Positions 12,419-59,915 of a stretch of DNA of 64,000 nucleotides are shown one piece after another. The notes beneath the pieces were generated by a model. It saw only the letters and a list, made by a program, of their open reading frames with translations, was not told the DNA's origin and did no database searches. Each line of letters opens with the position of its first letter. The first letter of the stretch is position 1. The stretch lies in contig NC_021499.1 in assembly GCF_000412695.1 (NCBI RefSeq), positions 5,766,001 to 5,830,000 on the forward strand, in the 5' to 3' direction. Position numbers and translations under genes: made by a program. This stretch comes from Pseudomonas resinovorans NBRC 106553 (GTDB lineage Bacteria; Pseudomonadota; Gammaproteobacteria; Pseudomonadales; Pseudomonadaceae).

Positions 12419-14496
<2,078 letters not shown>

Positions 14497-14721
14497 CTCG
14501 CGCAGTCTAAACAAGCTCGTCGGATAAAACCAACCCGGTGGTCAGAATAATGTGACTGGCGCGTCGCGAAATGACGTAAGTCCCGGGTGCGACAACCCTA
14601 TTGTTGCAGGCAGGCAACATAGCTTGCCGCAAACTACACTCCTGCCGCTGCCGGGGCATATTGACCCGCCCCGAGCAGCCCCGTAGCCTTGCCCCCGACA
14701 CCCCCGAATCCAGGATTGATC

Positions 14722-57418: not shown

Positions 57419-59221
57419 ATGTCCGAGACCCTGCTCAGTTCCCGCAACCTGGCCTTCGAACTCTACGAAGTGCTGGACGCCGAAGCCCTGACCCAGCGCG
57501 AGCGCTTCGCCGATCACAACCGCGAAACCTTCGACGCCGCCCTGGGCACCGCCCGCAGCATCGCCGAGAAATTCTTCGCCCCGCACAACCGCAAGGGCGA
57601 CGAGCATGAGCCGGAGTACGTCAACGGCGCCGCCACCCTGATCCCGGAAGTGAAGCCCGCGGTGGATGCCTTCCTCGAGGCCGGCTTCCTCAACGCCACC
57701 CGCAGCTTCGAGCAAGGCGGCATGCAGCTGCCGACCCTGCTGTCGCAAGCCTGCTTCGCGCATTTCCAGGCGGCCAACGTCGGCAGCTCGGCCTACCCCT
57801 TCCTGACCATGGGCGCGGCCAACCTGATCGAGAGCTTCGGCAGCGACCAGCAGAAGCAGCGCTTCCTGCAGCCGATGATCGACGGCCGCTTCTTCGGCAC
57901 CATGGCCCTCACCGAGCCCCACGCCGGCTCGTCCCTGTCGGACATCCGCACCCGTGCCGAACCGGCTGGCGACGGCAGCTACCGCATCAAGGGCAACAAG
58001 ATCTTCATCTCCGGCGGCGACCACCCGCTGTCGGAGAACATCGTGCACATGGTGCTGGCCAAGCTGCCGGACGCACCGCCCGGGGTGAAGGGCATCTCGC
58101 TGTTCATCGTGCCCAAGTTCCTGGTCAACGACGACGGTTCCCTGGGCAAGCGCAACGACGTGATCCTCGCTGGCCTGTTCCACAAGATGGGCTACCGGGG
58201 CACCACCTCCACCGCGCTGAACTTCGGCGATAACGGCGAGTGCGTCGGCTACCTGGTCGGCCAGCCCCACGCCGGCCTGTCCTATATGTTCCAGATGATG
58301 AACGAAGCCCGTATCGGCGTCGGCATGGGCGCGGTCATGCTCGGCTACGCCGGCTACCTCTACTCCCTGGAATACGCCCGCGAACGCCCGCAAGGTCGCC
58401 TACCGGACGGCAAGGACCCGACCTCGCCGCAGGTGTCGATCATCCAGCACGCAGACGTACGACGCATGCTGCTGACCCAGAAGGCCTATGTGGAAGGCGC
58501 CTTCGACCTCGGCCTGTATTCCGCGCGGCTGTTCGACGACACCCAGACCCTCGCCACCGAGGAGGAGCGCCGCCAGGCCCACGAACTGCTCGACCTGCTG
58601 ACCCCCATCGTCAAATCCTGGCCCTCGGAGTTCTGCCTCAAGGCCAACGAACTGGCCATCCAGATCCTCGGCGGCCACGGCTACACCCGCGAGTACCCGG
58701 TGGAGCAGTACTACCGCGACAACCGCCTGAACCCCATCCACGAAGGCACCCACGGCATCCAGTCCCTCGACCTGCTGGGCCGCAAGCTGGTGCAGAACAA
58801 GGGCGCCGGCCTCAAGCAACTGACCCGACTGATCCAGGGCTGCTGCGAGCGCGCCGCCGAGTACGACTCCCTGAACGCCCTGCGCCAGCCGCTGGAACAG
58901 CTGATGACGCGCCTGTCCGAGGTCACCCTGGCGCTGCTCGGCGACCTGATGCAGGGCAAGGTCAACCAGGCCCTGGCCAACTCGGCGCTGTACCTCAAGG
59001 TCTTCGGCCACGCCGTGATCGGCTGGCGCTGGCTGGAACAGGCGATCCGCGCCGAACAGGGCCTGGCCCTCGGCAACCCGGCGGACGTCGACTTCTACCA
59101 GGGCAAGCTGCAGGCCGCGCGCTACTTCCTCACCTGGGAAGTGCCCGGCTGCCACCACGAACTGGCCCTGCTCGAAGCCCGCGACGACACCTGCCTGGCG
59201 ATGCAGGACAGCTGGTTTTGA
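57419..59221 (+). CDS. Acyl-CoA dehydrogenase (long FadE-type)
   Basis: A 600-residue flavoprotein that oxidises acyl-CoA to enoyl-CoA. The core ACAD fold has GTMALTEPHAGSSLSDIRTR (FAD/acyl contact), YRIKGNKIFISGGDHPLSEN, and AIQILGGHGYTREYPVEQYY with NRLNPIHEGTHGIQSLDLLG, where the catalytic Glu lies (YYRD...HEGT). It is longer than medium-chain enzymes, with an extra C-terminal domain (about 475-600) as in DUF-type ACADs common in Pseudomonas. The ribosome site GGAGAG is 6 bases ahead. Monocistronic, with a terminator right after it. Confidence 0.92.
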   Translation: MSETLLSSRNLAFELYEVLDAEALTQRERFADHNRETFDAALGTARSIAEKFFAPHNRKGDEHEPEYVNGAATLIPEVKPAVDAFLEAGFLNATRSFEQGGMQLPTLLSQACFAHFQAANVGSSAYPFLTMGAANLIESFGSDQQKQRFLQPMIDGRFFGTMALTEPHAGSSLSDIRTRAEPAGDGSYRIKGNKIFISGGDHPLSENIVHMVLAKLPDAPPGVKGISLFIVPKFLVNDDGSLGKRNDVILAGLFHKMGYRGTTSTALNFGDNGECVGYLVGQPHAGLSYMFQMMNEARIGVGMGAVMLGYAGYLYSLEYARERPQGRLPDGKDPTSPQVSIIQHADVRRMLLTQKAYVEGAFDLGLYSARLFDDTQTLATEEERRQAHELLDLLTPIVKSWPSEFCLKANELAIQILGGHGYTREYPVEQYYRDNRLNPIHEGTHGIQSLDLLGRKLVQNKGAGLKQLTRLIQGCCERAAEYDSLNALRQPLEQLMTRLSEVTLALLGDLMQGKVNQALANSALYLKVFGHAVIGWRWLEQAIRAEQGLALGNPADVDFYQGKLQAARYFLTWEVPGCHHELALLEARDDTCLAMQDSWF

Positions 59222-59240
59222 AACCATTTCTAGTTTTCAT

Positions 59241-59268
59241 GCCCCGCGCACATGCGGGGCTTTTTTTT
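59241..59268 (+). terminator. Terminator of the acyl-CoA dehydrogenase gene
   Basis: GCCCCGC (59241-59247) and GCGGGGC (59254-59260) form a 7-bp stem with a 6-base loop, and eight T residues follow. Start is 19 bases after the stop codon. Confidence 0.93.
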
Positions 59269-59384
59269 GGTTCTTTTTTCATTCCGGGGGCAGGTGCCCA
59301 CGCTGAATTGGTCGTTTTGTGTGATGGTTCTGGCTGACCCCCAGTCTGCGGATGCTTCCCTCTTCCGAACGCGGCCCGCCCCAG

Positions 59385-59408
59385 CCCCTCTCCCTGAATG
59401 GAGAGGGG
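59385..59408. repeat. 9-bp hairpin CCCCTCTCC / GGAGAGGGG
   Basis: Perfect 9-bp arms at 59385-59393 and 59400-59408 with a CTGAAT loop. Similar CCCCTCTCCC...GGGAGAGGGG palindromes are widespread between genes in Pseudomonas and Xanthomonas by my recollection. It belongs to the 694-base gene-free gap 59222-59915. Confidence 0.55.
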
Positions 59409-59513
59409 TGACTCGCGCCGGCGAGGTAAAGTAGTCCTGATGCCTGATCGGCCCTGACATGAAGCAATGAAGATGACGCCGCGCAAAGCGCCCCTTCAGG
59501 AGGCCGAGCGGAA

Positions 59514-59689
59514 TCCTTGCGGAGGGGGACGAGCGGCATGGATGCCGCGAGAGGCGCGCGGGGCCATGGATGGCCCCTCGCGCCGTGTCCCCGGAGCAAG
59601 GATGGAGCAAGGGGACCCCGGCGAAGCCGGGGCCGGATGCAGGGGCAAGCGTTTTGCTTCCTTTTAGGCGACTGTAAAAGGGAGTCGCC
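59514..59689. other. Structured multi-hairpin element, possibly a non-coding RNA or repeat
   Basis: An outer stem pairs TCCTTGC+GGGGAC (59514-59530) with GTCCCC+GCAAGGA (59587-59602). Inside are two hairpins that share a CATGGATG tip: GCGGCAT/ATGCCGC (59533-59548) and GGCGCG-c-GGGGCCAT/ATGGCCCC-t-CGCGCC (59553-59584). Then comes CCCCGGC-gaa-GCCGGGG (59616-59632). Last, CCTTTTA (59660-59666)/TAAAAGG (59675-59681) and GGCGACT (59667-59673)/AGTCGCC (59683-59689) are interleaved, so only one of the two stems can form at a time unless a very tight pseudoknot is allowed. Long open frames here on both strands look like shadow of the palindromes. Strand and transcription are unknown. Confidence 0.6.
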
Positions 59690-59915
59690 CGGGAGGGCGA
59701 AACAGAAACCCGCCGCCCGCTCGGCAATGAGCCGGGCAACAAAACCTCCCAACCGACCTGAACTTCCCACCATCAACCCCCCCGGAAATTCCTCCGAATT
59801 TATGCCAATCCACGCTTGCGGCCCGTTCCGGGTAGCAGGTTAGAATCCCGCTGGCATGCACACTGCATGCACCCCTCCCAGCATCACCCCCCACACTTTG
59901 CAGGAGCTTCGACAC

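Follow-up and report, generated by a model that had tools for sequence, protein, structure and literature searches.

A dispersed structured repeat of the TwoAYGGAY kind in Pseudomonas resinovorans with conserved, putatively Rsm-binding hairpin loops

Results

The Element at the Locus

What lies near the end of the 64,000-nt stretch of the Pseudomonas resinovorans NBRC 106553 genome analyzed here (the window)? Positions 59514 to 59689, 176 bases singled out by an initial annotation, are part of one copy of a dispersed, probably noncoding repeat. A terminator-like hairpin (59241-59260) stands between the upstream gene and this element, the parts of which are as follows.

~59435..~59738 (+): element with its 5' and 3' extensions, from an alignment of 57 own-genome copies
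59490..59703 (+): universal element, 214 bp, GCCCC ... GGGCGAAAC, from the conservation profile of copies outside the own genome
59490..59646 (+): core domain, 157 nt, closed by GCCCC/GGGGC (59490-59494 with 59642-59646); covariance model R1
59497..59503 (+): CAGGAGG, nearly invariant, opposite CCGGATG; modeled as two short helices flanking GGA/GGA
59513..59603 (+): outer stem around both hairpins, 13 bp (59513-59520/59596-59603 plus 59524-59528/59588-59592), with two-sided helix changes
59533-59538/59543-59548 (+): hairpin 1, tip CATGGATG
59537..59544 (+): loop 1, CATGGATG (pattern CANGGANG)
59553-59558/59579-59584 plus 59560-59566/59571-59577 (+): hairpin 2, tip CATGGATG
59565..59572 (+): loop 2, CATGGATG (pattern CANGGANG)
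59616..59632 (+): hairpin CCCCGGC-GAA-GCCGGGG, arms 59616-59622/59626-59632
59633..59639 (+): CCGGATG, nearly invariant, pairs in the model with 59497-59503
59657..59684 (+): 3' stem, pair 1 (below) plus three more pairs; covaries
59685..59700 (+): terminal hairpin TCGCCC-GGGA-GGGCGA, taking bases of pair 2 (below)

The boundaries of the universal element come from a profile of 229 retained cores; copies from other genomes show no conservation outside 59490-59703 (183 copies; 60 sampled for the 3' side). The 5' extension from ~59435 and the 3' extension to ~59738 are common to most own-genome copies. The initial annotation had described the two-part outer stem, two hairpins with the same tip, the CCCCGGC/GCCGGGG hairpin, and two interleaved 7-bp pairs (59660-59666/59675-59681, here pair 1, and 59667-59673/59683-59689, pair 2), and all of these are present in the sequence. 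It overlooked the GCCCC/GGGGC closing helix, the terminal hairpin, and the true extent of the element.

Copies vary in detail. The 59616-59632 hairpin reads GTTTGGC/GCCAAAC in many others, and some carry inserts of 14, 15, or ~58 bases. The ~58-base insert is optional and sits at ~59522/59523 (loci L011, L025, L027, L034, L038, L054, and L059); in L013 it seems to replace both GGA hairpins. Directly 5' of many copies stands one of two unrelated palindromic repeats, of the CCCCTCTCCC or the GGTATCGCTTCGCTCAACCCATCC type; in the window such a repeat lies at ~59380-59410.

Copy Number, Distribution, and Presence at the Locus

How widespread is the element? Covariance model R1 gave 67 matches at E <= 0.001 in the P. 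resinovorans genome, every one of them on contig C1, and 63 scored above 60 bits; the element is thus not single copy. The 176 bases alone, used as a query, gave at least 41 matches, with 40 of 99 candidates scored. Matches occurred in 17 of 18 genomes of the genus, the own genome included, and, under strict filters, in 119 of 198 genomes and 12 of 19 genera of a family sample and in 10 of 321 genomes of a class sample, two of which belong to the family. Among the matches listed, the exact pattern is hosted by Pseudomonas alcaligenes, P. otitidis, P. resinovorans, P. indica, P. nitroreducens, and several Stutzerimonas. Plasmids yielded one partial match, and the phages searched yielded none. 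The initial annotation had suggested a shared structured repeat at many sites, and this holds for Pseudomonas and some other gammaproteobacteria, with compensatory changes. At the margins of the distribution, distant copies (L178 and L179) are followed by several CTGGCGGGCGGAACC-type repeats, and in L180, from another family, copies of a distant relative stand in tandem with a spacing of ~600 bp.

The window copy is absent from the same place in relatives. In all 15 relatives that retain both flanking anchors, the anchors stand 212-358 bp apart vs. 695 here, and none has a core match; two more relatives were left out, the downstream anchor being absent from the stretch compared.

Relation to TwoAYGGAY

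Is the element a known RNA? At gathering level, the only Rfam match in the window is a TPP riboswitch (14393-14499, minus strand). The element itself matches RF01731, TwoAYGGAY, at 59526..59590 (plus strand) with 42.5 bits, against a gathering cut-off of 43. When an E-value threshold is applied instead, matches appear at five of six loci, all on the element strand (42.5-45.5 bits; L013 gives none), the four besides the window copy reaching 43.4-45.5 bits and sister copies overall 43.4-48.8. RF01731 matched 35 of 398 genomes in a phylum sample, 28 of them over the cut-off (the own genome among these), and 0 of 14 control genomes. The window's family accounts for 17 of the 35; of the remaining 18, 10 have at least three matches, with no more than six scored in any genome. 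The RNA therefore tends to be multi-copy in these gammaproteobacteria.

The window copy and most own-genome matches seen align with RF01731 model positions 45-113 only and leave the Rfam outer stem unmatched, whereas some matches in other genomes extend over positions 1-168. Gardner and Eldai's group reportedly predicted that TwoAYGGAY binds CsrA. The available text of PMC4333381 presents CsrA binding as a prediction and calls the outer stem poorly conserved. In the openly accessible literature covered, judged by listings, abstracts, and excerpts, we found no description of TwoAYGGAY as a dispersed repeat.

RNA-Level Structure

Do the helices reflect selection on RNA, on DNA, or on a protein? 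The region 59500-59700 folds better than shuffled sequences on both strands (z = -5.55 on plus, -6.99 on minus; none of 200 shuffles reached so low a value on either strand). Covariation was assessed on 65 of 80 cores plus the window copy, whose row starts one base early and lacks the last C. In these 66 cores, pairing holds in 98.8% of cells; two-sided change is seen in 17 pairs vs. a shuffled mean of 10.7 and in 212 cells vs. 72.7, the shuffles ignoring relatedness. Sliding the partner by 1-3 columns lowers pairing to 36-49%, a drop to be read with caution, since any structure built from the same sequences will outdo its slid versions by construction. The outer stem's two sides are separated by 86 columns and have 0.67 bit in common; the nested stem of hairpin 2 shares 0.90 bit within itself and 0.24-0.35 bit with either outer-stem side. 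Within helices, G-U pairs outnumber A-C combinations 74 to 14. Together with the compensatory changes, this excess points to plus-strand RNA rather than duplex DNA, and it disfavors a DNA cruciform as the main form, one of the possibilities raised in the initial annotation. Among the closest orthologous pairs, helix changes break pairing more often than they keep it (16 vs. 7).

The 3' module bears on another early suggestion, a switch between two mutually exclusive 3' stems. Fifty-one own-genome rows were used from the 57 collected, six being partial, broken, or mis-set. All seven bases of pair 1 pair in 39 of the 51, with changes on both sides kept, and some of the 12 exceptions look like alignment shifts. 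For pair 2, full pairing is seen in just 18 of the 51, with uncompensated mismatches, and the bases of this pair belong to the terminal hairpin, which is better kept (complete in 35 copies, with five of six pairs in the other 16). The first of the two stems thus stands, as a covarying one; the second falls away, and we therefore reject the switch.

A coding function is not favored by these comparisons. In the 51 own-genome copies, which share one ancestor, a minus frame is most often open (41 of 51), and each of the six stays open more often than it does after shuffling; frames alone do not decide the matter. That shared ancestry, lengths that differ from 214 by a non-multiple of three in 18 of the 51 copies, and covariation pointing to RNA are what weigh against a gene here.

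Conservation of the Hairpin Loops

Both window loops read ATGGAT and fit CANGGANG, which we take to be the RsmE/CsrA hairpin consensus. The initial annotation had named the CATGGATG tips and missed their tie to CsrA/Rsm-type loops. Among 302 unique copies, conservation of each fixed letter of CANGGANG is 99.0-100%, in loop 1 as in loop 2. At the first N of loop 2, 168 unique copies have T, 105 have G, 13 have A, and 2 have C; because of the G class, not all copies are strictly AYGGAY. The loops lie ~28 nt apart, a layout that would suit one CsrA/RsmA-family dimer.

How far does this conservation depend on the way in which copies were found? Some loci had been chosen by their loops, and the counts were repeated without those copies. 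In two sets of loci a loop regular expression matched 12 of 15 and 12 of 19, numbers that, being pattern-selected, give no measure of loop conservation. Both loops are intact in 159 of 168 unique copies that were not pattern-chosen, and nine lack one or both. Ten loci taken without the pattern filter include GGA-tipped hairpins that are intact, others that are shorter, and, in L190, none; in some distant copies (L181, L182, and L185) one of the two loops has lost a base.

Loop letters are also stable in place. Across 27 orthologous pairs (mean flank identity 88%; not all independent), no change was seen in 324 comparisons of fixed loop positions, and 11 were seen in 105 comparisons of N positions. 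Other columns changed in 8 of 940 cases where conserved at >=97%, 89 of 1,241 at 85-97%, and 308 of 1,465 where weaker, so that other highly conserved columns are nearly as still as the fixed loop positions. In the 10 pairs with neither member chosen by loop pattern, 0 of 120 comparisons of fixed loop letters showed a change vs. 15.7 expected at flank divergence.

A Two-Armed Unit

Are copies arranged at random with respect to one another? Among 120 named loci, all picked for holding a copy and some mutually orthologous, 44 of 53 pairs of neighboring copies within 1 kb are head-to-head, 9 are tandem, and none is tail-to-tail. Head-to-head pairs closer than 500 bp number 58, and in 15 of them the spacing is 90-99 bp; many of the close spacers resemble one another, and the arm leaders fall into two kinds. 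In a relative, one of the two arms of a pair of this sort is missing. Because of this orientation, spacing, and one-arm absence, the data suggest a two-armed unit of ~520 bp. Arm identity is 74%, the same within units as between them. At two loci, L042 and L055, the 5' end of the element is preceded by a copy of the 3' module in inverted orientation, which resembles the remnant of a second arm.

Signs of a mobilizing machinery were sought around these units. Flanking ORFs came from a codon-score caller, and inspection of the 25 largest clusters of 689 such ORFs, by eye and not by family search, showed no recurrent transposase or reverse transcriptase. No exact ends, terminal repeats, or target-site duplication were established, because the flanks of element-free sites are too diverged to fix the ends. 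REP mobilization by RAYT enzymes is a poor fit: Y1 genes (PF01797) occur in 18 of 18 genus genomes, with three matches in the zero-copy genome, in counts that do not tell REP-specific RAYTs apart.

Genomic Context, Promoters, and CsrA Genes

Where do copies sit relative to genes? By a simple gene caller, 27 of 53 copies lie between convergent genes, 2 between divergent genes, and the others in tandem contexts, 11 sense and 13 antisense; this lack of strand bias between tandem genes led us to discard a sense 3'-UTR element. A consensus scan found no promoter-like site in window positions 59200-59900, and no excess of GacA boxes or sigma-70 sites upstream of 260 copies, and a GacA-controlled small RNA gene with its own promoter was set aside for lack of signal. 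No terminator-like site was found inside the element on the plus strand.

CsrA-family matches were present in 18 of 18 genus genomes. Of the three in the own genome, one falls under the cut-off and another lies on the second, smaller contig (C2, 112859-113014; 72.8 bits), for which no element copy is listed. Copy numbers, which are lower bounds (at least the value given), correlate with CsrA paralogues (Spearman 0.61), but genome size correlates too (0.56 and 0.61), and we draw no link from this relation.

Discussion

What might such a repeat do? Judged from comparative sequence evidence, it is a real, widespread structured RNA repeat of the TwoAYGGAY kind that most likely binds Rsm, and the CsrA/Rsm-type loops CATGGATG are the likeliest key to its function. 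In the reading that we favor, and consider probable with modest confidence, the plus-strand RNA would fold into a TwoAYGGAY-type domain exposing two CANGGANG hairpin loops and capture Rsm dimers, and the dispersed copies together would form a low-level sink for Rsm protein. We infer that the RNA arises most likely by read-through from neighboring genes, because no promoter of its own was found. Several results speak against this reading: the lack of promoter or GacA-box signal, the lack of strand preference beside tandem genes, the terminator-like hairpin upstream of the window copy, helix decay in close orthologous pairs, and the copies with missing or shortened loops.

Much of the same evidence would fit a selfish, nonautonomous mobile element, for which the unit would be the head-to-head pair of ~520 bp and single arms derivative. 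The RNA structure and Rsm-type motif would then serve the element's own spread or silencing, and single copies would matter little to the host. We regard this as possible but rather unlikely: it is favored by the excess of head-to-head pairs, the recurrent 90- to 99-bp spacing with similar spacers, the absence of one arm of a pair in a relative and of the window copy in all 15 informative relatives, the decaying helices, and the missing strand bias, but it must contend with fixed loop letters that stay unchanged in place across 27 orthologous pairs, with no linked enzyme in sight, and with ends and target duplication that were not established. The two ideas could also be combined. A two-armed mobile RNA element that multiplies CsrA/Rsm sites, such that repeat load would set the level of free regulator and the regulator would act back on the RNA, would account at once for the strict conservation of the loops, for the inverted pairs, and for how widely Pseudomonadaceae carry the repeat; we put this forward as a speculation, a shade less credible to us than the selfish element.

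Two further readings dispense with Rsm. A transcription barrier or terminator-like spacer, in which the RNA hairpin cluster is used irrespective of Rsm, would account for the preference for convergent over divergent gene pairs, but generic avoidance of promoters explains that placement too, the element lacks an internal plus-strand terminator-like site, and its loop letters are far stricter than a terminator needs; we think it improbable. Lower still, and very hard to sustain, is a DNA-level signal such as a cruciform or a single-strand hairpin bound by protein: that both strands fold better than shuffles and that copies form inverted pairs would agree with it, but the G-U/A-C asymmetry and an Rfam match confined to one strand do not.

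We know of no tested function for TwoAYGGAY in Rfam. In the present comparison its relatives recur throughout the genomes of many Pseudomonadaceae, their Rsm-type loops nearly invariant, and a repeat that could be taken for clutter may distribute sites to which the global regulator CsrA/Rsm would bind. If Rsm binding is true, repeat content joins a central regulatory circuit, and published pull-downs—e.g., unexplained intergenic Rsm targets in P. putida—can be reread. The two-armed unit, in turn, offers a defined object for seeking a mobilizing enzyme.

How does the element compare with known systems? Like REP and REPIN sequences of Pseudomonas it is dispersed, intergenic, and found as inverted doublets, but with ~214 bp per arm it is unlike those repeats, for which the available text gives some 20-40 bp (PMC3733652). 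Closer in size, copy number, and intergenic location, compared by description only, are the families R200 (320 bp, 47 copies in P. fluorescens SBW25), R26 (352 bp, 20 copies in Pf0-1), and, in P. putida, Ppu-1 (617 bp, 39 members; PMC2267715), as given in the accessible parts of their descriptions. The excerpted account of Rsm targets in P. putida KT2440 includes a "long palindromic region" (PMC7937890). The intergenic targets there are placed beside copies of ISPpu8, which belongs to the IS4 family and measures 1419 bp (PMC3056050), and downstream of PP_3547. Judged by description only, Ppu-1 and this palindromic region may be the same kind of thing as our element. With the sponge RNAs CsrB and RsmX-Y-Z it shares GGA hairpin loops suited to CsrA-family dimers, and RF01731 belongs to the same Rfam clan as RsmY (CL00106); unlike them, it has only two canonical loops and many copies, and no promoter or GacA box was found in our scans. 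The nearest likeness is to TwoAYGGAY itself, with its two AYGGAY-type terminal loops and sister copies over the gathering cut-off; the difference, relative to the available descriptions of that RNA, is that here the two loops belong to a larger domain, one that includes a 3' hairpin module, and recur as a high-copy dispersed repeat.
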